From an uncultured Bacilli bacterium (lineage in GTDB: Bacteria > Bacillota_I > Bacilli_A > RF39 > UBA660): a stretch of 64,000 nucleotides of DNA. Each line of letters begins with the position of its first letter. The first letter of the stretch is position 1. Below are positions 21,226 through 40,187 of the stretch, in pieces. Where the stretch lies: assembly GCA_947598325.1 (NCBI GenBank), contig CANQFD010000007.1, forward strand, positions 1-64,000, read 5' to 3'. The position numbers were made by a program, and so were the translations under genes. The notes beneath the pieces were generated by a model. The model ran no database searches and was not told the DNA's origin. It worked only from the letters and a program-made list of their open reading frames with translations.

Positions 21226-21239
21226 AATTGACCTCCTTA

Positions 21240-21322: not shown

Positions 21323-21323
21323 C

Positions 21324-21347: not shown

Positions 21348-21360
21348 CTCCATCATCGTA

Positions 21361-25178: not shown

Positions 25179-25195
25179 TTTGTTCTCCTTTCTAC

Positions 25196-25846: not shown

Positions 25847-25863
25847 ACTATATTCTCCTTTCT

Positions 25864-26404
25864 TTAACCAAATACTCTATCTATATCTTCTTGAGTTGCT
25901 TTTCTAGTTCCATCAGATGATGGTTCTATACTAGATAGAAGTATATTTAATAAACTAACAAATGACATTTCTTTCATATCATCTATAGCTATATTTAATC
26001 TTTTAGCGAGAGCCATTATTTCATATTCATCTATTGGTTCATCACTTTGCGAACTGTTGGGGATTTCCTTGATTTCCCCCTGATATGGGTGTCACTGCTA
26101 AATCAATAACTTCATCCACCCACTTCACATCATCAAATAATTTTTCAATTCCTTTTAAGAAATCTTCAAATGAGCCTACTTGTTTAACATCTGATTCTAT
26201 TATCATTACATATGTTATTTGTAATAATATTTCTAGAAAGTCATCTAACACTGCAAGTATGTCATCATTCTTTTCTCTTAAATCCTTTATTTTGTTAATG
26301 TCCTGCATTAACTTTCTACCAGTCATATCTCTATATTTGAATTGTGTTAATGCACTTGATTGCATAGTGTAATCTTTACCACCAATATTAATTATTTTTT
26401 TCAT
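25864..26404 (-). CDS. tail assembly chaperone with probable programmed frameshift, displaced
   Basis: Frame 0 runs 26404-26042 and gives 120 residues (INIGGKDYTMQSSALTQFKYRD, ILLQITYVMIIESD, SFEDFLKGIEKLFDDV), the pattern of Gram-positive gpG-type chaperones. A second frame (stop at 25864) lacks an early ATG. It encodes MALAKRLNIAIDDMKEM, LLNILLSSI and the typical gpGT ending RKATQEDIDRVFG. The frames can only join between an out-of-frame TGA near 26094 and the frame-0 stop. That window holds GGGGGA (26080-26075; a -2 slip gives a 180-residue fusion) and CCCC (26062-26059; a +1 slip). Both lead to the same frame. Such proteins bind the tape measure during tail assembly, but the gene normally lies just before the tape-measure gene, not at the head of the packaging genes as here. 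Confidence 0.78.
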
Positions 26405-26433
26405 ACGTTTCTCCTTTTCTAATTAATTTAAAA

Positions 26434-26460
26434 CAAAATAAAAGAGGTTATAATAACCTC
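26434..26460 (-). terminator. terminator between early and late regions
   Basis: Minus-strand 7-bp stem GAGGTTA/TAACCTC (26460-26444, 3-nt loop) followed by TTTTATTTTG. It ends early transcription just upstream of the first late gene. The gap 26405-26527 holds nothing else recognisable. Confidence 0.65.
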
Positions 26461-26527
26461 ACAAAATTAATGGAAATATAGTTATGTAGATAATTTTCTA
26501 CTCTAGTATTATGACACAAAAAATCTA

Positions 26528-26725
26528 TCATTTTCTATCATTTTCTATCATCTTTGATTTTTTTACTATATATTTTGATATATCTTTTATAAGTAAATTT
26601 CTAATACTTTTATCTTTTCCTATCATTCTATATATCTCTAATTCTTCTTCTAATTGTTTTATTTTATTTTTTAATTCTTTTATTTGATATTTTTGGTCAT
26701 AATATAATTGTTCATAATCTTTCAT
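26528..26725 (-). CDS. small coiled-coil phage protein
   Basis: 65 residues, highly charged with a predicted coiled coil (YQIKELKNKIKQLEEELEIY). No domain is recognised. Its 3' end and the following bases contain three tandem copies of a 10-bp TTTTCTATCA-like repeat. It overlaps the preceding HNH gene by 14 nt. Confidence 0.5.
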   Translation of the reverse strand: MKDYEQLYYDQKYQIKELKNKIKQLEEELEIYRMIGKDKSIRNLLIKDISKYIVKKSKMIENDRK

Positions 26726-27098
26726 TTTTTAATTTATTTCCTTTATCAATAACTTTTGCTATTAAAGAACCTGTATTAGTTATGTTTTTATCAGTAGTAA
26801 ATAGTTTATTTTTATTCATTATTAAATCTTCTGATTTACTAACTAATTTAAGATTTGATAAATCAATATTTTTTCTATTTCCATCGAGAAAAATTAAATT
26901 ATATCCTTTTGGAATCTTACCATATTTTTTTTCATAAATATATCTATGTTTTAACTGCCATTTATTAGGCTCTTTTATTTTAATTTCTATATATCCATCT
27001 TTAGTTATTCTTTCTGAGCCTACATCTCTATGATTTGCTGGAATATTCCCTTTTTTGAATCTAGTTGCTTTAGTTTTTTCTATTGATTCTATACTCAT
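26712..27098 (-). CDS. truncated HNH homing-type endonuclease, probably inactive
   Basis: 128 residues from ATG 27098. RFKKGNIPANHRDVGSERI, EIKIKEPNKWQLKHRYIYEKK, IPKGYNLIFLDGNRKNIDLSNL and SEDLIMNKN match the common phage HNH family (PF13392-like). Two oddities are visible. The frame upstream of the ATG still reads GNIPHNKGKRQNDY, a family motif, until a TAA at about 27138, so the normal N-terminal DNA-binding segment has been lost. The usual His of PKGH is Tyr (PKGY). It looks like a decaying selfish gene joined to the 30-codon frame upstream. Confidence 0.75.
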   Translation of the reverse strand: MSIESIEKTKATRFKKGNIPANHRDVGSERITKDGYIEIKIKEPNKWQLKHRYIYEKKYGKIPKGYNLIFLDGNRKNIDLSNLKLVSKSEDLIMNKNKLFTTDKNITNTGSLIAKVIDKGNKLKNERL

Positions 27099-27123
27099 AT
27101 AATCATTTTGTCTTTTTCCTTTA

Positions 27124-27216
27124 TTATGTGGGATATTCCCTTAGTTCTTCTTCATCATTTAGCCTTTCCAATTCTTCAAATAAATAATTATTTAAATCAA
27201 CTAAACTATTTTTCAT
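27124..27216 (-). CDS. truncated 30-residue phage protein
   Basis: A strong AGGAGG precedes ATG 27216. The product MKNSLVDLNNYLFEELERLN continues for ten residues and stops. The first 25 residues resemble the N-terminus of a small phage protein family that is normally longer. Its end falls on the remnant of the adjacent HNH gene, suggesting that a deletion fused the two. Confidence 0.5.
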   Translation of the reverse strand: MKNSLVDLNNYLFEELERLNDEEELREYPT

Positions 27217-27382
27217 AATACCTCCTATATATAGTTTTTAATTTATAAAACCATAGGAGTTTAACATATCTTTTTATTTGTTCTTCTAAAACTACAACTC
27301 TATTATTAGTTTTTGCAAATTTTATTCCTATCATTAAAATTATAGATAATACAATTCCTGTTATAATTATTGTTTTTTTCAT
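27206..27382 (-). CDS. small membrane protein, unknown function
   Basis: 58 residues starting MKKTIIITGIVLSIILMIGI, one N-terminal membrane helix and a basic tail. The start overlaps the upstream stop (ATGA) and the end overlaps the next gene, so it is translationally coupled. No family is recognised. Confidence 0.55.
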   Translation of the reverse strand: MKKTIIITGIVLSIILMIGIKFAKTNNRVVVLEEQIKRYVKLLWFYKLKTIYRRYYEK

Positions 27383-27819
27383 TTTTCTTTCCTCTCTTTC
27401 AATGTTTTTTTAATTTCTTCTAATTTTCTATACACTTGAGCCTCTTCATATGGCACTAGATGTATTATTTTTCTAACTTGTAGATTTTCTATATATTTAT
27501 ATACATATATCTTATCAATCCACTCTTTACTTTTTCTAAGTTCATCTTCTTTAGCATCTAATAATTTTTTTCTATCTTCTGATATTATTTTTATTTCATC
27601 TAGTCTTTTATCTATTTGTTTTTTTTCTTTTATAATTAAATAATCATCGAATGAATTACTTATGTTTCCACCATCTACATTAATTTTGTCGAATTTTGTC
27701 GATTTAGGTTGAGTTTTTGCGAACAATTTTTCTTTTTCTTCTAATATCTCATTATATAATTTTTGAACTTTATAATAGTTCCTTTTATATTCTTCATATG
27801 TTAAATAAATACTACTCAT
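27379..27819 (-). CDS. phage late transcription regulator-like protein (ArpU/RinA type)
   Basis: 146 residues from ATG 27819, six nt after GGAG. A long charged helical N-terminal region precedes SKEWIDKIYVYKYIENLQVRKI and YEEAQVYRKLEEIKK, which looks like the sigma-70 region-4-type helix-turn-helix of DUF1492/ArpU/RinA late regulators. These sit at the end of the early operon and switch on packaging and morphogenesis genes, which is its position here. Confidence 0.65.
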   Translation of the reverse strand: MSSIYLTYEEYKRNYYKVQKLYNEILEEKEKLFAKTQPKSTKFDKINVDGGNISNSFDDYLIIKEKKQIDKRLDEIKIISEDRKKLLDAKEDELRKSKEWIDKIYVYKYIENLQVRKIIHLVPYEEAQVYRKLEEIKKTLKERKEK

Positions 27820-28054
27820 AATATTCTCCATCGTATTCACTAACATTCATATAATAGTTATCCCATAAAGCCTCATTTTCAGCTCTTAATTTTACTATTG
27901 TTCTACCTTGTTGTTCTATTAATTCATCTTTTAATTCGATTGTTGATTCAAATTCTTTTATTTTGTTTTCATCTATAACTATTGTTATAACTAAACCACT
28001 AACAATTAGTATTATTCCTATAATTGCTAGGATATGTGCTATTTTTTTACTCAT
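27812..28054 (-). CDS. small membrane protein with coiled coil
   Basis: 80 residues from ATG 28054 (MSKKIAHILAIIGIILIVSG) with AGGTG upstream. One N-terminal membrane helix is followed by a coiled-coil segment (ELKDELIEQQGRTIVKLRAENEAL). It is coupled to the regulator gene downstream. Function unknown. Confidence 0.55.
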   Translation of the reverse strand: MSKKIAHILAIIGIILIVSGLVITIVIDENKIKEFESTIELKDELIEQQGRTIVKLRAENEALWDNYYMNVSEYDGEYYE

Positions 28055-28055
28055 A

Positions 28056-28211
28056 CTATTCACCTACCGTTTCTAATGCTGATACTAATTCAAATAAGAT
28101 ATTTCCTGATATTTTATATTCGCTCCATGGTTCATAATCTAAATCGTTTTTATGTTTTCTTAATAGTTTTTTAATTTCAATTAATGTATTATTTAATAAT
28201 TCATTATTCAT
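28056..28211 (-). CDS. small phage protein, unknown function
   Basis: 51 residues (MNNELLNNTLIEIKKLLRKH, DYEPWSEYKISGNILFEL), preceded by AAGGAAG. It ends two bases upstream of the next start. Mostly helical; not recognised. Confidence 0.55.
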   Translation of the reverse strand: MNNELLNNTLIEIKKLLRKHKNDLDYEPWSEYKISGNILFELVSALETVGE

Positions 28212-28241
28212 TTTATTTCACTTCCTTATTTAATGAATTAT

Positions 28242-29633
28242 CTATCCCCCAACATAAACACCATTTTTATGTGTTATTCCTTCAATTTGCGGAATTATAC
28301 TATATATTTCGTCATTTTCAATACTATTTATTACATCACATACATATTTACTGGATTCCGCTAAATAGTCTGAAACTTCTTGAATATTACCAATAAAATC
28401 AAGCTTATTTGTCTTTTTATTTATACAACATACATTTCCTTTATATTTGCTAGTAAAAACAATTTTTTCATCTTGACTTTTAAACATAGAATTGAATTTT
28501 TCTATTGCTTTTAATTTTGCTTGTTGGGATATATGAGTATAAGTTTTTAATGTAATAGAAATATCAGAATGTCCTAAAATGTCACTGATGGTTTTTACAT
28601 CGATTCCATTTTCAATATTAATACTAGCGAATGTATGCCTTAAAGCATGAAATTTTATAGGTTCTACTCCTACTTTTTTCATAAAACTATTATAAAATTT
28701 TCTATATGATCTTGGTTCGATTGGCTTATGCGAATTGCTTAATATATAATCACTTTCATCTTTTTTTATTGTTTTTAATATTTCTATAATTTCATTTGTG
28801 ATTGGTATTTGTCTAATTGAATTTTTAGTCTTCCCAGGAGTAATAATTATTTTTGTTGGTTCTAATTCATCTAGTGGATTATATATTCTTTGTATTGTTT
28901 TATTAACATTTATAATTTTTTCTTCAAAATTAACATCTTTATATTGCAAAGCGCAAATTTCTCCAATTCTCATTCCTGTATATATACCTAACAAAATGCC
29001 AACACTTTTTGAAGATACATTTTTTAAAATATAGTCAATTATTTTTTTATATTCTTTTTCAGTATAAACTTGCTTTTTAGTTTCAATTTGTAATGTTTTT
29101 GGTATTTTAATTTGTTTAAATGCAAAATCAGGAAATATATGTTCTTCTTGTCCATCTCTTATAACTGCTTTAACTAGCAATAATGAATCCCTTATATAAT
29201 GTTCTGAAATACCTTTTTTCTCTTTACCACCTTTTTCCTTACACCAATATGCAAACATTTGAAGTAATTTATTATTAAATTGTTCACAAGGTATATCACC
29301 TAAACAAGGTATTATATTATACATAAATAAATTAACATAATTAGCATAAGTACTTTCTCTTATTTCATATTTCTTTTTTTCTAACCAGTATCCAGCATAA
29401 TACTTAAATATCTTCGTATTTACTTCTGTTGACAGTTCATATTTAATTATTTTATCTGGATTATCTGCAAGTTCTATTCCTAAATAATCAAATAACTTTT
29501 GTAAATCATCTAAACATACTGTTCCATTATTATTTAATATTTCTTCTACTCCCCATTCACTTGTATTTAATATTGGAGCAATATCTTTAAAATGATTATC
29601 AATTTTTTTAATTAATAATTCTTTTATTTTCAT
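28242..29633 (-). CDS. tyrosine recombinase with C-terminal NUMOD1-like domain
   Basis: 463 residues. Residues about 70-175 form the SAM-like core-binding domain (YAGYWLEKKKYEIRESTYANY). Residues about 190-385 hold a complete catalytic set: Arg in YTGMRIGE, His-x-x-Arg in HALRHTF, His in LGHSDIS and Tyr in KTYTHIS. The C-terminal 75 residues (CINKKTNKLDFIGNIQEVSDYL) resemble a NUMOD1-like DNA-binding module, an unusual addition. It is not next to either attachment site, and a serine integrase is present, so a role other than phage integration is inferred (element resolution, a nested element or DNA inversion). Confidence 0.85.
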   Translation of the reverse strand: MKIKELLIKKIDNHFKDIAPILNTSEWGVEEILNNNGTVCLDDLQKLFDYLGIELADNPDKIIKYELSTEVNTKIFKYYAGYWLEKKKYEIRESTYANYVNLFMYNIIPCLGDIPCEQFNNKLLQMFAYWCKEKGGKEKKGISEHYIRDSLLLVKAVIRDGQEEHIFPDFAFKQIKIPKTLQIETKKQVYTEKEYKKIIDYILKNVSSKSVGILLGIYTGMRIGEICALQYKDVNFEEKIINVNKTIQRIYNPLDELEPTKIIITPGKTKNSIRQIPITNEIIEILKTIKKDESDYILSNSHKPIEPRSYRKFYNSFMKKVGVEPIKFHALRHTFASINIENGIDVKTISDILGHSDISITLKTYTHISQQAKLKAIEKFNSMFKSQDEKIVFTSKYKGNVCCINKKTNKLDFIGNIQEVSDYLAESSKYVCDVINSIENDEIYSIIPQIEGITHKNGVYVGG

Positions 29634-29802
29634 TTTTCAATTTTCTAATATCCTCCTCTATATTTTCAATTTGTCTTTTTTTATATCCAAAACCATTATC
29701 ACCATTTGCTTTAATATCTTCTTGTATTCTTTTGATACACTCTTCTTTAAATTTAATTTGATTTGCAATAGATGGGTCTTTAATTAATTCTTTAAATTTC
29801 AT
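29608..29802 (-). CDS. small charged phage protein
   Basis: 64 residues (MKFKELIKDPSIANQIKFKE), helical and charged throughout with no known domain. It overlaps the downstream recombinase start by 26 nt. Function unknown. Confidence 0.5.
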   Translation of the reverse strand: MKFKELIKDPSIANQIKFKEECIKRIQEDIKANGDNGFGYKKRQIENIEEDIRKLKNENKRIIN

Positions 29803-29869
29803 TTTTACCTCTTTCTAATATTTCTAATATTTCCATAATATCAGTTCCCATAATAGCCCATTTTTCCAT
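29792..29869 (-). CDS. possible 25-residue peptide or frameshifted tail of the repeat protein
   Basis: Frame MEKWAIMGTDIMEILEILER continues upstream without a stop into the end of the repeat gene (NEVFNKIETLR). It may be a separate tiny gene or the original C-terminus of that protein, now out of frame. The ribosome site is weak. Confidence 0.3.
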   Translation of the reverse strand: MEKWAIMGTDIMEILEILERGKNEI

Positions 29870-29880
29870 TCGTAAAGTTT

Positions 29881-30528
29881 CTATTTTATTAAATACCTCG
29901 TTAATAATCTTGTCGTTTTGTTCCAATCTCCTGTGTTCCTATCTCCTGTGTTACAATCTCCTGTGTTCCTATATCCTGTGTTACAATCTCCTGTGTTCCT
30001 ATATCCTGTGTTCCAATCTCCTGTGTTCCTATCTCCTGTGTTACAATCTCCTGTGTTCCTATCTCCTGTGTTCCTATCTCCTGTGTTCCTATATCCTGTG
30101 TTACAATCTCCTGTGTTCCTATATCCTGTGTTCCTATCTCCTGTGTTCCTATATCCTGTGTTCCTATATCCTGTGTTACAAAAACCAGAATTTCCTGTAC
30201 CTGTATTTGCCATCTGCATAAATTCTTCTTTAGGTATTTCTCTAACTATTTTTATTTTGTTAGTTACTGATTTTGTTCCATCTTCAGAATCTTTTACTTC
30301 TCCTAATGCTTCTATTTCACAAAATCTATTTGTTTCAACATTAAAACTATAATAATTATCTACATCAAATAAACTTTTACAAAAGTGAAATCCATAATTA
30401 CAAATACCTATTGGTTCTTTTGTTTCATAAGTCTTTCCTACTTCATATTGAAATGGTTTATATCCTCCTGTACAACATAAATTTTCATTAAATCCTTTAT
30501 ATCCTTTTACTTTTTCAGTTTTCTTCAT
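29881..30528 (-). CDS. phage protein with 17 tandem NTG-type pentapeptides
   Basis: 215 residues. Residues 1-115 (VKGYKGFNENLCC, GICNYGFHFCKSLFDV, RFCEIEALGEV, KIKIVREIPKEEF) match a widespread DUF7666-like N-terminal domain. Then come 17 pentapeptides of the form N-T-G-(D/Y)-(R/C/W), likely a beta-helix, encoded by 15-bp tandem repeats. The end is abrupt (TTRLLTRYLIK), unlike related proteins that have a further C-terminal domain, so a frameshift at the repeat end is suspected. Function unknown. Pentapeptide-type helices can mimic DNA or bind protein, but nothing here shows that. Confidence 0.7.
   Translation of the reverse strand: MKKTEKVKGYKGFNENLCCTGGYKPFQYEVGKTYETKEPIGICNYGFHFCKSLFDVDNYYSFNVETNRFCEIEALGEVKDSEDGTKSVTNKIKIVREIPKEEFMQMANTGTGNSGFCNTGYRNTGYRNTGDRNTGYRNTGDCNTGYRNTGDRNTGDRNTGDCNTGDRNTGDWNTGYRNTGDCNTGYRNTGDCNTGDRNTGDWNKTTRLLTRYLIK
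29927..30181 (-). repeat. 15-bp tandem repeat, 17 units
   Basis: Seventeen contiguous 15-bp units (plus-strand consensus CTCCTGTGTTCCTAT), varying only at the positions that set the fourth and fifth residues of each pentapeptide. The length is likely to change by slippage or recombination. Confidence 0.9.
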
Positions 30529-30529
30529 A

Positions 30530-30838
30530 CTATAATTCCCTTTCTACTATTTTTAGTAACTTTATACAAAAATCGTATAAATTTTCTTCCTTAATTTTTA
30601 CTATTATTTTTTTATTATTTTTCTTATTTTCTATATACTTTCTTAATTTCATTTCTGTTAATATTTCTAATGCTCTTTCTTTTGTTTTGTAAAATCCTAA
30701 TGGAACATCACAATCATCTAAATCATCATATCTTATATCATATATTCCAAAACCATTTTCTTCTTCACAAGTAGCAACATATAATTTATTTACTTTTTCT
30801 AATATGTTTTTATCTTGACTTCTAATCCATAATTCCAT
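30530..30838 (-). CDS. conserved small phage/mobile-element protein
   Basis: 102 residues beginning MELWIRSQDKNILEKVN, with FGIYDIRYDDLDD and LGFYKTKERALEILTEM. This MELWIRSQD...YKTKERA pattern is common in small uncharacterised proteins of Firmicute mobile elements. Function unknown. It lies one base upstream of the repeat-protein gene. Confidence 0.6.
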   Translation of the reverse strand: MELWIRSQDKNILEKVNKLYVATCEEENGFGIYDIRYDDLDDCDVPLGFYKTKERALEILTEMKLRKYIENKKNNKKIIVKIKEENLYDFCIKLLKIVEREL

Positions 30839-30840
30839 AA

Positions 30841-31044
30841 TTATTCACCATCCTCAATAATACCTATTGTTTCGATTGGCTCATCATCTAGTGCTTTTAA
30901 AATACACTCTACATTTTGAATATCTAATCTATTTTCTTTTATTAATAAATTAAGATATCTTCTTAATGTTAAATATCTATCTTCAATTATTTTATAAGTA
31001 TCAATTGATTTATTATTTAAAACGTTATTCATTGCATCTATCAT
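30841..31044 (-). CDS. small phage protein, unknown function
   Basis: 67 residues from ATG 31044 (MIDAMNNVLNNKSIDTYKII), with AAGGAAG 8 nt upstream. Helical with an acidic end. It overlaps the upstream gene by 20 nt. No family is recognised. Confidence 0.5.
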   Translation of the reverse strand: MIDAMNNVLNNKSIDTYKIIEDRYLTLRRYLNLLIKENRLDIQNVECILKALDDEPIETIGIIEDGE

Positions 31045-31294
31045 TTTTTTCACTTCCTTGTAATATATTTAGTAGTTCATATACCTTATCAGTAGTAGAT
31101 AAATAAGGTAGTATATTTTTAATAAACACTATTGCTTTTTCATTTCTTGTTTTATATTTTTTGGTATCTGCTCTTGATACATTTAAAAATTGTTCTAATT
31201 GGTTTCTATAAAACTTACTATAATCTAAACTATCTCTTTCAAGTAAAGCCCTGCACCAATGTTCGTTCATTATTGATGTAATCTTTTCACCCAT
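31025..31294 (-). CDS. small phage protein, unknown function
   Basis: 89 residues (MGEKITSIMNEHWCRALLER, FYRNQLEQFLNVSRADTKKYKT). The TAATG overlap with the recombinase stop and the AAAGGATT site support this start. Mostly helical; not recognised. Confidence 0.5.
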   Translation of the reverse strand: MGEKITSIMNEHWCRALLERDSLDYSKFYRNQLEQFLNVSRADTKKYKTRNEKAIVFIKNILPYLSTTDKVYELLNILQGSEKNDRCNE

Positions 31295-32136
31295 TAATAT
31301 CGAATCCTTTCTAATTTATTTTTCTTTTCTTTGTTAGATGTCATAGTATATATTGCAGTTGTTTTTATATCGTTATGTCCTAAAATATCTCTTAGTTCAT
31401 CTAAATCAATACCATTTTCTTTACATTTTTTAGCGAATAAATGTCGCCATGCATGAGGATGTATTTTATTAGGATTAATTTTTGCTTGTTTAGATATTTT
31501 TTTTAATCTTCGCCATATGGTGCTATTATTTAACATCTTATCTTTTTTTACTGGACTAATAAAAATGTAGCCACTACTGATTTTATTTTCTTTACAATAA
31601 TTCTTTAATTCTCTTTTTAATTCATTTGTCATAATCAAAGTTCTTTCTTTTCCTTTGTTGTATGCACCTTTTATAAAATTACTATCTAGTGATTCTACTG
31701 TGAAATATTTTAATTCATCAATTCTAGCACCAGTATGAGCAAATATTTTGATAATAAAATACATATCCATCATATTTAGTTTTTTCGCCCATCTTAACAT
31801 TCTTTTATGTTCTTGTTCCCATATAGGGTCATCAATAGATGTTTTTTGTTGTTCTTTAAACTTTTTTAATGTACAATCATTTAATTTTAAGTATTTTAAA
31901 AACTTATTAACTATAACTATATATTTATTTTTTGATTTAACTTTAAATCCTTTTTCAGTTAGATTTTCTTTAAAATCAATCATTAAACTTTTATTAAGTT
32001 CAAACTCATCAGGCAAGAAGTCAATTAACTTATTTACTGCATTTCTATAATCACCTATTGTTCTTTTTGATTTTTCATCTAATCTTTCAGAATCAATAAA
32101 ATTATCTAGTTCTTTTTTTATTTCTTCTTTAGTCAT
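31294..32136 (-). CDS. second tyrosine recombinase (XerC/D-like)
   Basis: 280 residues. Residues 1-95 form a SAM-like N-terminal domain. The catalytic domain has Arg in HTGARIDE, HAWRH, LGHNDIK and Tyr in AIYTMTS, all intact. It lies among early replication genes rather than at a phage end. A role in resolving or circularising replicating phage DNA is possible, since no RecT/Erf-type recombinase was seen; this is inference. The gap 32137-32268 upstream holds nothing recognisable. Confidence 0.85.
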   Translation of the reverse strand: MTKEEIKKELDNFIDSERLDEKSKRTIGDYRNAVNKLIDFLPDEFELNKSLMIDFKENLTEKGFKVKSKNKYIVIVNKFLKYLKLNDCTLKKFKEQQKTSIDDPIWEQEHKRMLRWAKKLNMMDMYFIIKIFAHTGARIDELKYFTVESLDSNFIKGAYNKGKERTLIMTNELKRELKNYCKENKISSGYIFISPVKKDKMLNNSTIWRRLKKISKQAKINPNKIHPHAWRHLFAKKCKENGIDLDELRDILGHNDIKTTAIYTMTSNKEKKNKLERIRY

Positions 32137-32268
32137 ATTGACTTTACCTCTCTTTCTTCTTTATATACCTAGCAAGATAACCATAATATTATATTGCACC
32201 TATCAAATATCTATCTTTGCTTTATTTAATAAGGTTTTTTAGCATTTTTTAATAATCTATACTTTTTG

Positions 32269-32469
32269 CTATTTTTTAATTGGTTTTATCTTGGATAAAT
32301 CAACTAATTTACTACCATCTATATCAGATGGACAAGCTTTAATAATTGCTTTCGGAATTAAATTTTCTTTAAAATAGAAAAATGTATTTAATACTTCTTC
32401 TTTAGTAGATGAAGTATTCTTTTTGGATTCAATATATATTCTAGTAAGTTCTAATGCTATTTCACCCAC
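32269..32469 (-). CDS. small phage protein, unknown function
   Basis: 66 residues from GTG 32469 (VGEIALELTRIYIESK), chosen because GGAGGTG lies immediately upstream; the longer TTG-initiated version would include that site. Contains NTSSTKEEVLNTFFYFKENL. No family is recognised. Confidence 0.5.
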   Translation of the reverse strand: MGEIALELTRIYIESKKNTSSTKEEVLNTFFYFKENLIPKAIIKACPSDIDGSKLVDLSKIKPIKK

Positions 32470-32488
32470 TATAACACCTCCCAAAATT

Positions 32489-32746
32489 TTAATTATCTAA
32501 ATAATCATCTATTTTTCTTCTGAGTTTATCATCATATGTTCTAAATCCAATTAAATCTAATGCAATAAAATTATTTTCTATGTGATGTAAATTTTCATCA
32601 CTTACTTTTGTTTTATCTTTCATATTTTTAAATAAATCTCTAATCAATTGTTCATTGTATGTTATCGCTGGTGCTAATACTTTTAATTGTTCTGCATATG
32701 TAATTAAATATTCTAATTCTTTTTCACTAAACTTCACTTTTTTCAC
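32489..32746 (-). CDS. small helical phage protein
   Basis: 85 residues (MKKVKFSEKELEYLITYAEQ, LIRDLFKNMKDK, RTYDDKLRRKIDDYLDN). It overlaps the upstream gene by 20 nt and lies in a run of tightly packed early genes. Function unknown. Confidence 0.5.
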   Translation of the reverse strand: MKKVKFSEKELEYLITYAEQLKVLAPAITYNEQLIRDLFKNMKDKTKVSDENLHHIENNFIALDLIGFRTYDDKLRRKIDDYLDN

Positions 32747-32939
32747 CTACCATCTTTATTAATTCTTCATATTCTTCAATAGTCATATGAGTTTTCATAC
32801 AATACTTCTTTATTGATTCAATTAAATGAAATTGTCTATTTACTTCTTCATCAAACTTAATTAATAAATCCTCAACTTTTTGTTTTTCTTTTTTTAGTTT
32901 TTCTAGTTCTTGTTTTAGATTCAGTATTTCTTGTTCCAT
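32727..32939 (-). CDS. small coiled-coil phage protein
   Basis: 70 residues. The first 40 are a predicted coiled coil (LNLKQELEKLKKEKQKVEDL), then CMKTHMTIEEYEELIKMVG. It overlaps both neighbours. Function unknown. Confidence 0.5.
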   Translation of the reverse strand: MEQEILNLKQELEKLKKEKQKVEDLLIKFDEEVNRQFHLIESIKKYCMKTHMTIEEYEELIKMVGEKSEV

Positions 32940-33189
32940 CTTTCTCTCCTTTTTTTAATTCTTTTATTTCTTTTTTTAATTTAATTATTTCTTGATGTAG
33001 GTCAATAGTACTTTCAGTAAGGTCTTTTATTCTTTGTTCATATAAATCTCGTTGTAAAAGTTTTGTTTTTTTCTCAGTATTATATTGAATTATCTTTTCT
33101 TCTAATTCATCACATTTAACATTGTATTTCACTTGTAAAGTATTATATTTTTTTCTTGTCTTTAGATGTTCATATATATGATTAATCAT
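32872..33189 (-). CDS. coiled-coil protein with basic tail
   Basis: 105 residues from ATG 33189 (MINHIYEHLKTRKKYNTLQV), with GGAG 6-7 nt upstream. Long helical coiled coil (CDELEEKIIQYNTEKKTKL, DLHQEIIKLKKEIKELKKG) and a Lys/Arg/Thr-rich C-terminus. It overlaps the replisome organizer stop by 8 nt. It may bind nucleic acid through the tail; no family is recognised. Confidence 0.5.
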   Translation of the reverse strand: MINHIYEHLKTRKKYNTLQVKYNVKCDELEEKIIQYNTEKKTKLLQRDLYEQRIKDLTESTIDLHQEIIKLKKEIKELKKGEKDGTRNTESKTRTRKTKKRKTKS

Positions 33190-33994
33190 CTTCATTCTCC
33201 TCACCATCATTTCCCTCATTTAACCAATCATAATCAAATATTTCGTTTATTTCTTTTTGTTCTTCTTCTGATAATTCTCTATGTTTAGGTAGTTCATTAT
33301 CTTTTATTTCTTGTAGTGTTTTATATCCTGCAGTTTTCCAATTTCTTAATATTCCATTAACATAGTTAAATGTCCTTTTATTATTTAAAGTAGATATTTC
33401 TATTGCATATTTAATTATTTCTTCATCATACGACAACAACCAGTCATCTATCTTTTCTACTTCTATTGAACTTAAAGTTCTTCCAAAATTATTTTCTATA
33501 TACTCATATATAGTTGTAGTTTTAGATATAACTATATCTTTATCTTTATCTTTTAACTTTAGTTCTAGTTCTATCTTTGGTGGACACTTGTCCACCTCTT
33601 GTCTTCTTAATAATCTTTGTTGTTGTTTTTTAAATGCACCGAGGCTTTTAGAACCAATAAGATTTTCTAATTGAGTAAGATATATTTCACCATTATCTAA
33701 TATTTTTATTAATCCTATTTTTTTAAGTAATTCCATAGCGATTGTGACTGTGTCAAAATCCATTTTTGTCATCTCAGATAATTTTTTATTATCATATGGT
33801 ATTAACATATTTCCTACATTGCGAATTAAAATACCATTTGTTTTTAAACTTTTTAAACACAATTTTAAGTAAAAATAAGCATAATCTCGACCATTAGGTT
33901 TTTGGCTTTCTAACCAATCTATAGCATCATCATCAAAGAAATCTTCTTTTAATAATAACCAATAAAACTTTGTGTCTTTATCGTATTTAGCCAT
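33182..33994 (-). CDS. phage replisome organizer, DnaD-like
   Basis: 270 residues. Residues 1-120 form the Phage_rep_org_N winged-helix domain (DTKFYWLLLKEDFFDDDAIDWL, LSEMTKMDFDTV). A linker (QEVDKCPPKIELELKLKDKD) follows, then about 165-235 a DnaD/DnaB_2 C-terminal domain (YEYIENNFGRTLSSIEVEKIDDW, FNYVNGILRNWKTAGYKT). It opens the phage origin and loads the host helicase. The linker DNA holds a perfect palindrome, a candidate origin element. Confidence 0.9.
   Translation of the reverse strand: MAKYDKDTKFYWLLLKEDFFDDDAIDWLESQKPNGRDYAYFYLKLCLKSLKTNGILIRNVGNMLIPYDNKKLSEMTKMDFDTVTIAMELLKKIGLIKILDNGEIYLTQLENLIGSKSLGAFKKQQQRLLRRQEVDKCPPKIELELKLKDKDKDIVISKTTTIYEYIENNFGRTLSSIEVEKIDDWLLSYDEEIIKYAIEISTLNNKRTFNYVNGILRNWKTAGYKTLQEIKDNELPKHRELSEEEQKEINEIFDYDWLNEGNDGEENEDD
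33579..33596. other. candidate phage replication origin palindrome
   Basis: GGTGGACA-CT-TGTCCACC, a perfect 8-bp inverted repeat inside the replisome-organizer linker codons (EVDKCPP), followed by AAAGAT direct repeats. Origins inside the initiator gene are common in Gram-positive siphophages. Confidence 0.45.
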
Positions 33995-34105
33995 TTATTT
34001 TTTCCTTAATTCTTTAATTACTGTCTTAATCATTATTAGGATAATTGATATTCCTAATGTTATGATGATTGCTAATGCCAGTATTTCTAATGTTTTTAAT
34101 ATCAT
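33995..34105 (-). CDS. 36-residue single-span membrane peptide
   Basis: AGGAGG lies 7 nt before ATG 34105. The product MILKTLEILALAIIITLGIS continues to a basic KELRKK end, forming one membrane helix. It overlaps the upstream stop (ATGA). Function unknown. Confidence 0.55.
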   Translation of the reverse strand: MILKTLEILALAIIITLGISIILIMIKTVIKELRKK

Positions 34106-34341
34106 TTCTCGTCCTCCTCAATATCTTTGATTAAATGATAGATAGCATAATTACTAATATGTCCATATCTATTTTTACCTTGTGTCATTTCAGTTTCTAT
34201 ACCGAATCCTTTTTCTTGTAAAATAAATATTATTCCTGATAATCTAGTTGCACCATATCTTTTTATAGCCTCATTAGATGTAATTGATTTATATTTTCTT
34301 AAATGTGCGATGATATCAGTTATCTGACTTCTTTTAGTCAT
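34102..34341 (-). CDS. small helix-turn-helix protein of the early operon
   Basis: 79 residues from ATG 34341 (MTKRSQITDIIAHLRKYKSI), with GGGTGA upstream. TSNEAIKRYGATRLSGIIFILQEKGF is a winged-helix pattern seen in small phage DNA-binding proteins. It probably regulates early genes or assists replication. It overlaps the preceding membrane-protein gene. Confidence 0.6.
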   Translation of the reverse strand: MTKRSQITDIIAHLRKYKSITSNEAIKRYGATRLSGIIFILQEKGFGIETEMTQGKNRYGHISNYAIYHLIKDIEEDEK

Positions 34342-34555
34342 TTTCATCACCCACATTACATGTATAGAACTTATCGCCATCTTTTGTATGATAGGCTTTG
34401 ATTCCATATCCTTTTTCTGCACATTGCATTGATACTTTTTCAATGTGTTTTTCCATATCGTTATTTAAAATTGTTATTAATCCTAGAATTACAATTACTA
34501 ATCCTATTATTGCTAGTGAGTATTTTACCCGTGGTTTTAATCTATATCTTTTCAT
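34334..34555 (-). CDS. small membrane protein, early operon
   Basis: 73 residues. A basic N-terminus and one membrane helix (YSLAIIGLVIVILGLITIL) precede a short outer domain with two cysteines (QCAEKGYGI, FYTCNVGDEN). Function unknown. It overlaps both neighbours. Confidence 0.55.
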   Translation of the reverse strand: MKRYRLKPRVKYSLAIIGLVIVILGLITILNNDMEKHIEKVSMQCAEKGYGIKAYHTKDGDKFYTCNVGDEND

Positions 34556-34655
34556 TCTTTTTACCTCTTTCTTTTATTACATATTTAACCTTTATATTTT
34601 CTTGTTTTTCATAAAGTTCAATGAGTTTTTTTAAGAGGCTTTTTTCATCTTTCAT
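34542..34655 (-). CDS. 37-residue phage peptide, first gene of the early operon
   Basis: A strong AAGGAGG lies 6 nt before ATG 34655. The product (MKDEKSLLKKLIELYEKQEN) is helical and charged. It overlaps the next gene. The upstream 34666-34699 element is shared with the integrase leader. Confidence 0.55.
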   Translation of the reverse strand: MKDEKSLLKKLIELYEKQENIKVKYVIKERGKKNEKI

Positions 34656-34665
34656 AAAAATCCTC

Positions 34666-34699
34666 CTTATTTTGTTTTAATTTAGTTTAGCGACTAATT
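34666..34699 (-). promoter_or_regulatory. 20-bp regulatory element, early-operon copy
   Basis: Plus-strand 34680-34699 is the exact reverse complement of 36481-36500, and similarity extends imperfectly for about 13 more bases. On the minus strand it starts AATTAGTCGCTAAACTAAAT, with a TTAG-TCG-CTAA palindrome, directly upstream of the first early gene. It is probably a shared binding site for a phage regulator. Confidence 0.55.
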
Positions 34700-34931
34700 A
34701 TTGAGTTTTCTCAACTTTTTCTTTAAAAAAATATTCACTTATCTCATCATCATTAATTTCAAGCAATGCTGCCATTTTCTTTATTTCTGATGAATCAAAT
34801 TGAACTTGATTATTTATTCTCTTACTAAATACTTGTTCTGACATGTTTAATTTTTTTACAAAATTTGATTGAGAATTAAATTTTTCCTTTATTCTACCCT
34901 TTAATTTAGAATAATCAAATTCATACTTCAT
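34698..34931 (-). CDS. Cro-like/DUF739 helix-turn-helix regulator
   Basis: 77 residues (KLKGRIKEKFNSQSNFVKKLNM, SEQVFSKRINNQVQFDSSEIKKMAALL), a compact helix-turn-helix of the DUF739 type. It diverges from the CI-like repressor and shares its operators. Its own 3' end contains another operator (34701-34714). Expected role: lytic-side repressor. Confidence 0.85.
   Translation of the reverse strand: MKYEFDYSKLKGRIKEKFNSQSNFVKKLNMSEQVFSKRINNQVQFDSSEIKKMAALLEINDDEISEYFFKEKVEKTQ
34701..34714. promoter_or_regulatory. operator O1 at the 3' end of the cro-like gene
   Basis: TTGAGTTTTCTCAA, a perfect inverted repeat identical to O2 at 34958-34971. It adjoins the 20-bp shared element and could control the early operon start. 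Confidence 0.65.
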
Positions 34932-34957
34932 ATTCTTTTCACTTCCTTTCTTCGTGG

Positions 34958-35090
34958 TTGAGTTTTCTCAACCTCTATTATCAGTTTACACACTCTTTTT
35001 TATAAAGTCAACACTTTTTGTTGAGTTTTTTCAATTATTTACGCATATTATTGTTTTAATGTTGATTTTTCTCATTTTTATGTTTATAAT
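34958..35090. promoter_or_regulatory. divergent cro/cI control region with three operators
   Basis: Operators TTGAGTTTTCTCAA (34958-34971), TTGAGTTTTTTCAA (35021-35034) and TTGATTTTTCTCAT (35062-35075). The minus-strand cro promoter is TTGACT (35011-35006), 17 nt, TAAACT (34988-34983). The plus-strand repressor promoter is TTGATT (35062-35067), 17 nt, TATAAT (35085-35090). The third operator covers the repressor -35 and the first lies just downstream of the cro promoter. Confidence 0.8.
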
Positions 35091-35111
35091 AATAATGAAA
35101 GGAGATATAAT

Positions 35112-35786
35112 ATGGACAATAGTTTTTCTACTAGATTAAAAAAAGCAATGGCTCTACGAGGTATTAAGCAGTCAGAACTATCTAGTAAGGCTCATTTAGA
35201 TAAATCACTTATCAGTAATTATGTAAATGGAAATTATAATGCCAAGCAAGAAAACATTCATGCTATTGCCCTAGCACTTGATGTTGATGAGGGATGGTTA
35301 ATGGGATATGATACTTCATTAGAAAGAAAAGATGACATATCTTCTATTAATATAGATAATGCTAGATACATAAAAACATCTACTCAGATGGTTAAAATAC
35401 CTATTCTCGGGAAAATACCTGCTGGAATACCCATTGAGGCTATAGAGGATGTTTTAGGATACGAAGAAATCCCTATATCAATGTTAAATAATGATACTAA
35501 TTTTTTTGCACTTAGAGTTGAGGGCGACAGTATGTTCCCTGATTACAAAGAGGGAGATGTACTTATAGTAAAACAACAAAACGATTGTAATTCAGGTGAT
35601 GACTGTGTAGTAATGGTTAATAGCAACGATGCTACTTTTAAGCGAGTTATAAAACAAAATAATACTTTAATTTTAAAACCTTTAAATAATCAATATGAAC
35701 CTTATGTATTCACTAGAGAAGATGTTATTAATATTCCAGTTAAAGTTTTAGGTGTTGTTATCGAAATAAGGAGAAGAAAAAAATGA
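35112..35786 (+). CDS. CI/LexA-type phage repressor with S24 autoprotease domain
   Basis: 224 residues. Residues 4-63 form an HTH_3 (FSTRLKKAMALRGIKQSELS, SLISNYVNGNYNAKQE). The hinge carries the Ala104-Gly105 cleavage bond, and the peptidase domain has Ser140 (GDSM) and Lys177 (TFKRV). It maintains lysogeny by binding the TTGAG-N4-CTCAA operators. RecA-stimulated self-cleavage would link induction to the host SOS response. The downstream gene overlaps its end by 4 nt. Confidence 0.94.
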   Translation: MDNSFSTRLKKAMALRGIKQSELSSKAHLDKSLISNYVNGNYNAKQENIHAIALALDVDEGWLMGYDTSLERKDDISSINIDNARYIKTSTQMVKIPILGKIPAGIPIEAIEDVLGYEEIPISMLNNDTNFFALRVEGDSMFPDYKEGDVLIVKQQNDCNSGDDCVVMVNSNDATFKRVIKQNNTLILKPLNNQYEPYVFTREDVINIPVKVLGVVIEIRRRKK

Positions 35787-36436
35787 ATAAATATGCAATT
35801 GAATTGAAAATATTAAAATGGAAACCATGGATACATATAGCATTAGGATTATTTACTTATCTTATATGGTTTGTTATTCTACTAATTATTTATATAGATT
35901 ATAATAATTCAAACAAAGACTCAACAAAAACAATAAAAACCATAAATAATACAACTGTTAAACATCCAGTAAAAGCAGTTTATTTCAAAGTTGCTGGTAT
36001 AACATATGAAGATAGACAAGAAGAAATAAAAAAAATATTAAGAGATGCTTTTAAATTAGGATATTATGAAAAATATGATGGTATGACAAATGCTGAAATA
36101 AAAGACTTTGGTGATACTATCTATGAGGCAAACAATATATATTTTAATAACTTGAAATTAGTTCCTACTAAATATGAAGATAAAGATGCCATTGAGATTC
36201 ATGTGGATGATTTATCCGACAAAAATAAATTAATAATGGTAGGATATGTACCTAAAAAAAATATAAATGAAGTATCAGACTTCTTAAAATATAAAGAAGA
36301 ACATCCTGAATATGAATATAAAGAAAATGTTAATTTAACTGGTGGAAAAGGTAAAAGAGTTAATTTTGATGATGAGATGGAAACAGTTGAATTAAACTAT
36401 GGAATTGATATTGCATTAGAATTATATGAACAATAA
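35783..36436 (+). CDS. membrane-anchored HIRAN-domain protein
   Basis: 217 residues. One hydrophobic helix at about 19-40 (IALGLFTYLIWFVILLIIY) is followed by a HIRAN-like domain at about 63-165 (YFKVAGITYEDRQEEIKKIL, LKLVPTKYEDKDAIEIHVDD, IMVGYVPKKN). HIRAN domains bind DNA ends or modified DNA in helicases and phage proteins. Co-transcribed with the repressor, it is probably expressed in the lysogen, so a superinfection or lysogenic-conversion role is plausible but unproven. Confidence 0.65.
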   Translation: MNKYAIELKILKWKPWIHIALGLFTYLIWFVILLIIYIDYNNSNKDSTKTIKTINNTTVKHPVKAVYFKVAGITYEDRQEEIKKILRDAFKLGYYEKYDGMTNAEIKDFGDTIYEANNIYFNNLKLVPTKYEDKDAIEIHVDDLSDKNKLIMVGYVPKKNINEVSDFLKYKEEHPEYEYKENVNLTGGKGKRVNFDDEMETVELNYGIDIALELYEQ

Positions 36437-36463
36437 AAAAAGACTTACTGCTGGAACAGTAAG
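36437..36463 (-). terminator. minus-oriented terminator between HIRAN and integrase genes
   Basis: CTTACTG/CAGTAAG stem (36463-36444) followed on the minus strand by TCTTTTTT. It would stop transcripts entering antisense from the comEA-comEC side. Confidence 0.55.
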
Positions 36464-36480
36464 CCGAATGAAAAATCACA

Positions 36481-36514
36481 AATTAGTCGCTAAACTAAAT
36501 AAAAAAAATAAGGT
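36481..36514 (+). promoter_or_regulatory. 20-bp regulatory element, integrase copy
   Basis: Exact inverted copy of 34680-34699. It is followed by an inverted repeat GTTATAATG (36513-36521) / CATTATAAC (36541-36549) before the integrase ribosome site AGAGG. Confidence 0.55.
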
Positions 36515-36584
36515 TATAATGTTTATGGATTTTTCTATATCATTATAACAAATTTTCAATAAAAAGAAAAGAGGTTATAATAAA

Positions 36585-37991
36585 ATGAATAAAATAATTA
36601 GAGTTGGAATATATATAAGAGTATCTACTGAGGAACAAGCCAAACATGGTTATTCAATAGATAGTCAAAAAACTAGATTAATAACCTGGGCAAAAGAACA
36701 TAATTATCAAATAGTAGATGTCTATGCAGATGAGGGAAAGTCTGCTCGTACTAAGATTTTTAATCGTAAAGAATTGTTGCGATTACTTGATGATGTTAAA
36801 GATGATAAAATTGATAGAATTATCATTTGGCGACTTGATAGATGGTTTCGTAATGTCGCTGATTATTATCGTATTCAAGATATTCTTGATAAACACAATG
36901 TTGATTGGGAATGTTCTGATGAAGATTTTAATACATCTACTTCTAATGGTCGTTTATATCTTAACATTAAGTTATCTATCGCACAAAATGAATCAGACCA
37001 AACATCTGATAGGATTAAATTTAATTTTGAAAATATGGTACGAAATAAAAGACCTATTTCAGGTGCTTTGCCTGTAGGATATATGGTAGCAGGTGAAAAA
37101 CAAAATAAGAGAGTTGTGAAAGACCCTTCCCTATCTCAAATGGCTATTGATATGTTTGAAAAGTTTGAAGAAACATTATCTTTAAGAGCCACTACTCAAT
37201 ATCTTAACGAAACATATCCTCATAGACCTATTGGCTATGAGAGAGTTAAAAAGATGCTACAAAATAGTATGTATCATGGTGTCTATCGTGATGTCGAAGA
37301 TTATTGCGAACCATATATCACTAAAGAAAGACAAGATAATATCATTAAACTCATTAAGAAAAACCATAGACCTAATAAACCATCAGGACATGTATTTATT
37401 TTTAGTGGATTAATTAGGTGCTATGATTGTGGTCGTAGAATGGGTGGCTCTAGAGCATCTAGAAAACATACTAAACGAGGTGTAGTGACTGAAATTATAA
37501 GATATGGTACTTATAAATGTTGTAATCATTTTTTAGATTGTAGATGTTCTAATAATCATACTATTAACGAAGATAAACTTGAAAGATGGATGATTGATAA
37601 TTTTCTTGCTAAATTAAATGAACATGTTATTTCAATAGAAACTGCAGAAGAGAAAAAAACTAAAACTAATAACATTAATAAAATAACTAATCTTAAAGAT
37701 AAATTAGAGAGATTAAATGAGTTATATCTTGATGGTAGAATATCTAGAGAAAAATATGATAATGATTATTTAGATACAAAAAACAAAATTAAAGAACTAA
37801 ATATAGATGATGAACTTGATTCTAATCGTAATCTTTCTAAATATAAAGAAATAATTAAAGATGCCAATGTCGTAGATATTTATAATAAATTAGATAGAAA
37901 ACATAAGAGATTGTTTTGGTATGAATATATTGACCATATTGAACAAGATTTTGATAATATTAATGATAATTGGTTAGTTTTTTTTAAATAA
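36585..37991 (+). CDS. int: large serine recombinase, phage integrase
   Basis: 468 residues. The N-terminal resolvase domain has catalytic Ser14 in IRVST, followed by DEGKSARTKIFNR, IIIWRLDRWFRN and SIAQNESDQTSDRI. A recombinase domain (GALPVGYMV, RATTQYLNE) follows. A zinc ribbon (CYDCGRRM and CC...CRC) and a coiled coil complete the large serine integrase layout. It catalyses attP x attB strand exchange and, with a directionality factor, excision. No excisionase partner is obvious. It lies 4 bp from the attR phage arm. Confidence 0.96.
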   Translation: MNKIIRVGIYIRVSTEEQAKHGYSIDSQKTRLITWAKEHNYQIVDVYADEGKSARTKIFNRKELLRLLDDVKDDKIDRIIIWRLDRWFRNVADYYRIQDILDKHNVDWECSDEDFNTSTSNGRLYLNIKLSIAQNESDQTSDRIKFNFENMVRNKRPISGALPVGYMVAGEKQNKRVVKDPSLSQMAIDMFEKFEETLSLRATTQYLNETYPHRPIGYERVKKMLQNSMYHGVYRDVEDYCEPYITKERQDNIIKLIKKNHRPNKPSGHVFIFSGLIRCYDCGRRMGGSRASRKHTKRGVVTEIIRYGTYKCCNHFLDCRCSNNHTINEDKLERWMIDNFLAKLNEHVISIETAEEKKTKTNNINKITNLKDKLERLNELYLDGRISREKYDNDYLDTKNKIKELNIDDELDSNRNLSKYKEIIKDANVVDIYNKLDRKHKRLFWYEYIDHIEQDFDNINDNWLVFFK

Positions 37992-37995
37992 TTTT

Positions 37996-38022
37996 GAGTG
38001 CATAACACTAGGTGTCCTTGTG
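37996..38022. other. prophage right attachment site, phage arm plus 4-bp core
   Basis: Phage arm GAGTGCATAA (37996-38005), 13 nt, then core TGTG (38019-38022) joined to comEC. Ligated to the other end it forms a 48-bp attP with perfect 10-bp inverted arms around a 28-nt centre. Confidence 0.88.
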
Positions 38023-39538
38023 TTAATAATATATAATCTATTTTTTTTACTCCAATTGATTTTAAATATGGAATAGTAATAGTTTTAACTATACTATATG
38101 CATTTCTTCTTTTTTTCCAAGTTATATTATCATATGTCTTTTGCCCTCCTGTATCTATTAAGATATTTTTATTATTAAATCTAATTAAGGCGCTATCACC
38201 TTGTCCAACATCTATAAAAGTTACTGAAGGCATAATGGTTACTTTTTTATAATTGATAAATAATATTAAAAATAATAATAGAATAATTATATATATTTTT
38301 TTAAATTTAGTTATTAAAAAATATATATTTATGTAATAAATAATAATAAATATAAAAGGTACTTTTGCGCAGGTAAATGATAGAATTTTTATATTTGCTA
38401 GAAACAGTGTAATTGATTCAAATAAATCAATAATAATATTATTGATATAATTTAAATTTGGAAAAATTAGAATAAGTATATTTAATGGAAATATTATAAA
38501 TGAAACAAATGGTACATAAAATAAATTATAAATAATACTTAATAAATTAAATTGATAAAAATTATTTATAAGTATTGGAAGTGATATAAAAAAAGATATT
38601 AGTGATGTTATAAAAAGTTTATTTATATACCCTTTTATATTTTTTAAATATTTCATAAAAAATATTAAACTAAAACTTATTGAAAATGAAAATAAAAATC
38701 CAATATCATATATATAGTATGGATTATAAAATAATAAAATACTTATCAAAAATAAAATAATATTTGTATTTTTTATATTTAAATTAAATATCTTATTTAA
38801 TGCAAATAATATAAACTGAAAACTAGCTCTAATCATGGAAATAGCATAATTAGTTATAAATAAATAAAATAGTAAAAATAAGCTTATAATTAGGTACTTT
38901 AATTTGTTTTTAAATTTTGGTAATAGTTTTAATAATATTGATGATAATAGTGTAACATGCATCCCTGATATTGCAAGTAAATGACTAACTCCTAAAAATT
39001 GATATGATTCAAAAATATTATTTTCTATTGATTTTTTATTACCTAATATAAAAGTTTTTATATACTCATTATTATTTATTTTATTTATTCTATTATAAAT
39101 TTTATTTTTTAAATCATATATAATAGATTTATTAGTATTTATAATATTAATACTACTTGCATTAAATATATAATTTATCTTTTTTGTATATAAATATCTT
39201 CTATAATTAAATGTATTAAAATTACTATTTTCATTTGGAATAGATATTTTTCCTAATACTTTTATATAATCTCCATATGATAATTTAATTTTTTCTTTTT
39301 CTTCTTTACTCTTAAAATAATAATTAACTATTATATTTTCTTTTGCTTTAAGAATAATAGATAATTTATCTCCATCTATTTCATAATTTATTATATTTCC
39401 ATATATTTCTAATGTATTAATATCATAATAAGAATATCTTTTTATATAGTTAACAGTTATGAATGTATATATTATTGAAATAGAAAAAATAATATAATAA
39501 ATATAATTAGATTGCAATAAACTCTTTAATTTTTTCAT
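38023..39538 (-). pseudogene. comEC: comEC 5' fragment (OB and channel domains), cut by prophage
   Basis: 505 host codons. N-terminal membrane helices and an OB-like region (GDYIKVLGKISIPNENSNFN) are followed by the competence channel (HLLAISGMHVTLLSSILLKLL, many helices). The start of the metallo-beta-lactamase domain (FIDVGQGDSALIRF, IDYILLT) then runs into phage DNA. In the lysogen the frame continues with 48 phage-encoded residues to a stop at 37880. The product would retain the channel but lack the nuclease core. The ATG overlaps comEA by 32 nt. The missing half is at 8504-9086, and the junction restores exactly in frame. Confidence 0.94.
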
Positions 39539-40187
39539 ATAATGATTTACCTATACCTGATACATTCATTATATCTTCTATTTTTTCAAAAGGACCATTT
39601 TCTTCTCTATATTTTATTATAGAATTAGCCTTACTTTCCCCTATTCCTGATATTGTCATTAATTCTTCTTTAGTTGCCTGATTAATGTATACTATCTCAT
39701 TACCAGTATTATCACTGTCAATATTATTAATATTAGCATCATTAAAATTATCTGTCTTAATAGAATCATTTTCTAGTTCTTCTTTTATTTCATTTACAGT
39801 TAACATTTTATCTTTATACTTTTTTAACTCTTCTACTGTATATATTATAACGCACATTTCATCTGTTAATCGTTTACTTAAATTTATAATACTTGTATCT
39901 GCATTTTCTTTTAGACCTCCAGCCATATTTATTACATCTATTACTCTAGAATATTTTTTTACTTCATATACTCCTGGATTATTAACCGCACCTTTTATAT
40001 CTACATAAAATGTATTTTCTTCCCCGCTTACATTTTTATCTTGTTTCTTTATTATTTTGTCTTCTTTTTTAATACTTGTATCTACCTCTTTTTTATCAAA
40101 GTTTGAATAATAAGCCCCAAGTACTATTATAAAAATAATAATAACTGTTAATAATATATATTTATAAAATTTACTATAGTTATCCAA
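39507..40187 (-). CDS. comEA: ComEA, DNA-binding competence receptor
   Basis: 226 residues. One N-terminal membrane anchor (YILLTVIIIFIIVLGAYYS), an SLBB-type region at about 60-105 (FYVDIKGAVNNPGVYEVKKYSR) and a C-terminal helix-hairpin-helix pair at about 165-226 (INQATKEELMTISGIGESKA, IMNVSGIGKSLYEKI). It binds double-stranded DNA at the cell surface and delivers it to ComEC. The start codon is TTG, 5-6 nt after AGGAGGTG. That ribosome site lies inside a hairpin. Confidence 0.95.
   Translation of the reverse strand: MDNYSKFYKYILLTVIIIFIIVLGAYYSNFDKKEVDTSIKKEDKIIKKQDKNVSGEENTFYVDIKGAVNNPGVYEVKKYSRVIDVINMAGGLKENADTSIINLSKRLTDEMCVIIYTVEELKKYKDKMLTVNEIKEELENDSIKTDNFNDANINNIDSDNTGNEIVYINQATKEELMTISGIGESKANSIIKYREENGPFEKIEDIMNVSGIGKSLYEKIKEFIAI

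Follow-up and report, generated by a model that had tools for sequence, protein, structure and literature searches.

A split attachment site of a serine-integrase phage in comEC of an uncultured Bacilli bacterium, and matching half-sites at the ends of comEC cassettes

Two short stretches of the window (the whole 64-kb piece of DNA analyzed here) carry the same ten letters in opposite orientation, which raises the question of what they form when joined and what separated them. The earlier note had joined 37996-38022 to 9091-9111 and read a 48-bp site composed of GAGTGCATAA, 13 nt, TGTG, 11 nt and TTATGCACTC, and the letters agree with that description throughout. We assign a probability of roughly 85% to the reading that this is the split attP of a temperate phage, recombined with an attB in comEC by a large serine recombinase (LSR), and that in the same bacterial family the P' half of such sites also ends small non-phage gene cassettes at this point of comEC, movement of which we infer to be due to phage LSRs. 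The elements of the site are as follows.

37996-38022, P-side stretch of the split attP, letters GAGTGCATAACACTAGGTGTCCTTGTG
9091-9111, P'-side stretch of the split attP, letters GTGACTTCTTTTTATGCACTC
37996..38018, plus strand, attP left half (P arm, 23 nt), now in attR; outer 10 nt GAGTGCATAA
9089..9111, minus strand, attP right half (P' arm, minus-strand reading GAGTGCATAAAAAGAAGTCACCA), now in attL
38019..38020, plus strand, crossover dinucleotide TG in attR (dyad center), from the intersection of common runs in four lysogens
9087..9088, plus strand, crossover dinucleotide TG in attL, from the same intersection
38021..38043, attB half on the comEC 5' side
9064..9086, attB half on the comEC 3' side, encoding GDFDHMG of the metal-binding motif

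The ends of the joined site are perfectly inverted over 10 bp and the whole is nearly symmetric, as had been claimed, with 16 of the 23 arm positions matching across the dyad. GAGTGCATAA occurs exactly twice in the window, both times at the split-site stretches and in opposite orientation, against an expectation of 0.12, and none of 100 shuffles contained it twice. Among 200,000 random junctions drawn from TGTG sites of the window, 78 gave a perfect inverted run of at least 10 near the core and 17 had perfect 10-bp arms at the exact observed offset. With a length of about 50 bp and symmetric arms about a central dinucleotide, the site has the form of an LSR attP.

The core itself required correction. 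The earlier note had given it as the 4 bp TGTG; the runs common to attL and attR are TGTG in the window, CCATG in L004, TG in L005 and CCATG in L006, and the only part that the runs of all four lysogens have in common is TG. The crossover dinucleotide is therefore TG (38019-38020 and 9087-9088), which makes a shared core of 2 bp. The second TG of TGTG is common to attL and attR by chance, in the window lysogen only. The TG shared by the four lysogens is the dyad center, which is where the dyad had been placed. The claim that the phage ends are fixed to the base holds once the lysogens are compared, which narrows the exchange to TG; the window lysogen alone leaves a 4-bp ambiguity.

Head, tail and packaging genes lie between the two crossover points, and the end of the integrase gene falls 4 bp short of the attP site.

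9087..38018, prophage, 28,932 bp between crossover points, with head, tail and packaging genes
36585..37991, plus strand, large serine recombinase (integrase), 468 aa: Resolvase (PF00239, 8.4e-31), Recombinase (PF07508, 1.6e-06) and zinc ribbon (PF13408, 2e-09)
35112..35786, plus strand, repressor with HTH and S24-peptidase domains
28242-29633 and 31294-32136, minus strand, two phage tyrosine recombinases (PF00589) of the early region
23170..24855, minus strand, terminase large subunit (phrog_9, 9.3e-156)
21929..23170, minus strand, portal protein (PF04860, phrog_12)
20170..21225, minus strand, major head protein (phrog_10)
15861..18131, minus strand, tape measure protein (phrog_58)
9153..10112, minus strand, endolysin (GH25, CW_7, LysM), the gene adjoining attL

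The prophage also encodes, at 29881-30528 on the minus strand, a protein with DUF7666 and pentapeptide repeats, in a stretch of DNA that repeats every 15 nt through at least 16 registers. The host genome has two additional large serine recombinases, far from comEC (G000:C4:53563-53922 and G000:C2:61175-61441).

The gene that the phage interrupts is comEC, and its two parts lie outward of the crossover points.

37880..39538, minus strand, comEC 5' fragment (PF03772, 3.7e-43; PF13567; start of PF00753); the ORF extends into phage DNA and the comEC part ends at 38021
8504..9109, minus strand, comEC 3' fragment, metallo-beta-lactamase nuclease domain (PF00753, 1.5e-08); the ORF start lies inside the P' arm
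39507..40187, minus strand, comEA-like gene upstream of comEC (SLBB and helix-hairpin-helix), a name inferred from the domains

The 5' part holds the Competence and DUF4131 domains and the 3' part the metallo-beta-lactamase domain. Joining the flanks to recreate the empty site gives one 700-aa ORF, reading LLTHGDFDHMGEA across the join, and thus restores the host gene; an intact comEC of the same genus (G006) is a frame of 701 aa. The crossover point falls within the codons of the metal-binding motif LTHGDFDH in the ComEC nuclease domain. The sequence across the join belongs to the motif II region of this domain, whose aspartates, according to the available part of one study (PMC8579336), bind metal and are important for transformation of B. 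subtilis. Directly downstream of comEC, and convergent with it, lies lexA (7655-8317, plus strand).

Relatives of the integrase were found in both bacterial and viral contigs, and they bear out the earlier assignment of the site to a large serine recombinase. In addition to the adjoining 468-aa LSR, integrase relatives occupy the same point of comEC elsewhere, with four loci (L004-L007) running into comEC past the integrase stop, and the unsplit attP is present in two viral contigs, L012 and L013. Over the outer 10 positions, the two arms of each of six phages match one another at 10, 8, 10, 10, 8 and 9 positions (mean 9.17), compared with a mean of 6.7 when arms were swapped among the phages, and the own-arm value was reached in only 2 of 720 pairings; the two attP arms thus change together between phages. 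The perfect arms in the window occupy positions 15-24 from the center, and the A118-type integrases, according to the available part of the source (PMC3783163), have their zinc-domain motif at positions 16-24 of the attP half-site. A search for the zinc-domain motif in attB gave a mean of 4.12 matches at a shift of 5, which is the expected inward shift, and an equal value at a shift of 7. A separate relative of the integrase in L009 (49% identity) is followed, from position 3589, by a 20/23 symmetric site whose letters differ and which may be an attP for a different target.

These comparisons also bear on two other explanations of the locus. A role of the inverted arms as a terminator or a hairpin of regulatory function, instead of attachment-site arms, finds some encouragement in the endolysin-side hairpin and T-run close to them, and is nevertheless extremely improbable: a distance of 28.9 kb separates the arms in the lysogen, where pairing is impossible, and in 6/6 phages they remain inverted about the crossover despite changed letters. 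Integration by one of the two tyrosine recombinases of the phage is suggested by the presence of the PF00589 proteins, yet we consider it very improbable, as the site is directly adjoined by the LSR gene in this lysogen, in the comEC lysogens L004-L007 and in L011-L013, and as the 2-bp overlap at the dyad center, a feature of serine integrases, points to such an enzyme.

The comEC of the window contains the phage and no cassette, its 3' fragment being followed by lexA. Elsewhere in the family, a search with the comEC 3' fragment (180/193 genomes matched; the genome sample consists of assemblies, one per species) revealed some genomes that have a whole comEC together with extra, tandem 3' halves. 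Every cassette unit read follows a uniform plan: it opens, exactly at the crossover, with a comEC 3' half, behind which come a YhcG or DinD-like gene, in most cases a single variable gene, and a 23-nt half-arm that precedes the next 3' half. The genes of the YhcG/DUF1016 kind carry PF06250 and PF17761, and the alternative gene has a Bro-N domain (PF02498) and is what we take to be DinD-like. Among the variable genes are those for a GNAT acetyltransferase, a NUDIX protein, an alpha/beta hydrolase, an MFS transporter, HD and Fic proteins, a peptidase S51 and a C39-like peptidase, with others unassigned. After four of 31 core-to-core units were set aside as not real units (L112, L115, L127 and L137), the remaining 27 measure 1,048-3,452 nt (median 2,127) and include 24 tagged ORFs, 8 DinD-like and 16 YhcG-like; the gene lists of the 27 cassettes contain no integrase and no ccr-type serine recombinase.

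Cassettes are frequent in the loci sampled. A YhcG/DinD-like gene follows within 400 nt in 37 of 69 full-length comEC loci, an orphan 3' half stands behind an arm in 16, and one or the other sign is present in 38, frequencies that are biased upward because 80 loci were picked from the best comEC-3'-half matches listed (180/193 genomes). Loci L087 and L206 are the same DNA, and L206 was left out of the cassette and arm counts. The reading frame is open over 180 aa in 9/15 first orphans and 0/2 second orphans, few arrays being traceable. If the last orphan of an array were the native comEC 3' end, its similarity should follow that of the 5' half, and this expectation was not borne out (r = -0.03; 240 pairs, 8 arrays by 30 cassette-free genes). 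At the level of the class, 115/296 genomes matched at E <= 1e-30, and the multiple matches outside the family, judged from the match table, look like paralogues, being mostly long frames.

To relate the cassette ends to the phage, the 23 nt before the core of each orphan were compared with 13 phage arms, without a preset arm pattern; the comparison passed over five candidates that lack a CAYGG core, and the 33 kept include L112 and L134, which are probably not orphans. A phage attP arm is reproduced letter for letter in the outer 10 nt of 23/33 orphans and of 0/71 full-length genes. Six more of the 33 orphans are one letter away from a phage arm, the 71 full-length genes never coming closer than 3 letters, and the P' arm of phage L012 is matched over 23/23 nt by 6/33 orphans. 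The arm classes of the cassettes are those of L012, L007, L004 and the window phage together with L005. One arm class, searched as a 32-letter pattern, is present in 27/386 family genomes and 25/150 genera (the reversed-pattern control gave 0 among the matches listed), and an integrase at E <= 1e-100 in only 7/386, far below the number of genomes with cassettes.

Viral contigs searched for comEC 3' halves and cassette genes yielded no phage carrying a cassette; one such search returned two loci, with 50% identity over half of the cassette-type protein. A search of the viral contigs for cassette half-sites picked out the L012 phage and L103 alone; L103 belongs to the same phage, and its first base lies 3 nt ahead of the TG core. 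Similarly, the array contig of an integrase-bearing genome (G011/G734) begins exactly at the core (CACATGG). Both starts fit an assembly that stops at points where integrated and free forms come together, which is only suggestive.

A comparison of two genomes of one genus, G195 and G764, captures a single change at the crossover. They have one cassette in common, 99.6% identical over 1,853 nt from core to core: the in-place 3' half, DinD-like gene and cargo of G195 make up the second unit of G764, and the in-place 3' half of G195 is the orphan behind GACTTACTTTTTGACAATCAGCA in G764. Between the comEC 5' half and this unit, G764 contains an extra cassette of 2,092 nt. To the left of the core of the shared unit the two genomes have zero identical bases; their comEC 5' halves are 88% identical and their in-place 3' halves 78%. 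One cassette has thus been gained in G764, or exactly lost in G195, at the crossover. The orphan 3' half of G764 (L196) reads HGDYNHI where the in-place copy of G195 (L099) reads HGDYDHM, which suggests that the metal-binding motif is being lost from the displaced copy.

Cassette parts also recur across genera at 93-97% identity (1,440 nt at 96.5% between L092 and L198, 1,610 nt at 94.2% between L198 and L210, and 989 nt at 93.0% between L087 and L203). Across 2,145 pairs of 66 comEC genes, the identities of two parts of the 5' half are correlated with r = 0.62, a value reached by 0/2,000 permutations, compared with r = 0.12 for the 5' and 3' halves, reached by 167/2,000. The comEC 3' halves travel and do not track the 5' halves. 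Mean 3'-half similarity is 0.74 in the 37 genes with a cassette sign versus 0.61 in the 29 without, at equal 5' similarity, and the excess identity of similar 3' halves is found only downstream of the core.

In the mechanism that we propose, two integrase subunits would occupy the two symmetric arms, with the zinc-ribbon domain expected at the outer 10 bp, and the integrase would cut at the central TG before strand exchange. In the lysogen comEC is split, and the 700-aa ComEC would be regained by precise excision. A new cassette would supply its own 3' half to the comEC 5' half, keeping comEC whole, and the older 3' half would become an orphan behind the arm. For the movement of cassettes, the likeliest route, one that would use canonical steps only, is probably transport by a prophage: the phage would integrate in comEC upstream of a cassette array; its attR could then find a partner either in its own attL or in the arm-flanked site past the first cassette; choice of the wrong, downstream attL would produce a phage circle with the cassette; and integration into another comEC, followed by exact excision, would leave the cassette there, with the old 3' half behind the arm. 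The available part of the literature on serine integrases (PMC3783163) reports recombination of attP with attB, or of attL with attR in the presence of a directionality factor, and of no other pairings, and this rule favors transport by a prophage over a direct reaction of attB with attL.

Such a direct, integron-like reaction, in which a free circle joining P' to a comEC 3' half would be inserted without a phage carrier, is a possible but doubtful route. The product it predicts, with the new cassette first, attB restored and the old 3' half displaced, is the arrangement seen in G764, and the failure of the viral-contig searches to return a cassette-carrying phage is in its favor; the reported inactivity of serine integrases on such pairs (PMC3783163, as far as the available part of that source goes) and the lack of an integrase gene from the 27 gene lists both argue against it. 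It is unlikely that homologous recombination between comEC 3' halves is what spreads the cassettes, the half-arms being fossils of old phage integrations. The 3' halves are alike enough across genera (mean 67% aa) for occasional recombination, and some exchange may take this route, but the break between G764 and G195 coincides with the crossover, to the left of which not one base is identical, the excess identity of similar 3' halves is confined to the region downstream of the core, and the G764 orphan tracks the G195 3' half from its start (90% over the first 30 nt, then 97-100%) and not the new in-place one (50-90%). 

We did not find the system of comEC cassettes described in the literature by title or abstract, within a limited coverage of subscription papers and preprints, but several known systems resemble it in part. 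The LSRs of A118 and phiC31, in the available part of their description (PMC3783163), share with the present one the three-domain architecture, attP half-sites with a distal zinc-domain motif, the central dinucleotide and insertion into a gene. They differ in that here a nuclease motif of comEC is the target, and in that close relatives with a constant target have at least four classes of arm letters. The SCC and ECC elements at rlmH likewise use an LSR to enter the 3' part of a host gene, and have dyad att sites and variable cargo (PMC6222049, from the part available). Those elements have their own ccr recombinases and span tens of kb, whereas the comEC cassettes are of 1-3.5 kb, lack a ccr-type recombinase in the 27 gene lists, bring a 570-nt replacement gene end, and have comEC, not rlmH, as their target. 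Composite and ccr-less SCC/ECC elements also exist.

Integrons are similar in that they gather small cassettes, mostly of one or two genes, in arrays at one fixed insertion point, the newest cassette first; the comEC arrays stand at a fixed point too, but their cassettes end in serine-integrase half-sites and each contains half of a host gene. Neither an IntI tyrosine integrase nor attC sites were noticed in the cassette units read. Competence genes are known as targets of mobile elements, as with the prophage in comK of Listeria. In pneumococcus, prophages in comYC and transposons in comEC are described in the available part of PMC12637031. As in those cases, the mobile element of the window splits the gene and should block transformation; unlike them, comEC is split at nuclease-motif codons, and the gene stays whole where cassettes have entered at that point.

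The attP alone is a good but ordinary result, a new LSR target defined to the base, and the variation of arm classes among close relatives with a constant attB makes these phages useful for learning how LSRs read DNA. If phage LSRs move the cassettes, cassettes are gathered outside integrons and inside a DNA-uptake gene, in a host group known mainly through metagenome assemblies. Which integrase moves which cassette is testable, as is the effect on transformation of a swapped nuclease domain or of a YhcG/DinD-like gene. More tentatively, and at a little under even odds, the system may be a serine-integrase counterpart of integrons, in which phage-type LSRs and P' half-sites maintain, across the family, a pool of cassettes that lack a recombinase and enter the nuclease-motif codons of comEC, each with its own 3' end. 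If so, arrays of foreign genes would build up in these bacteria while comEC stays whole, and the nuclease domain of ComEC would be swapped at each insertion.
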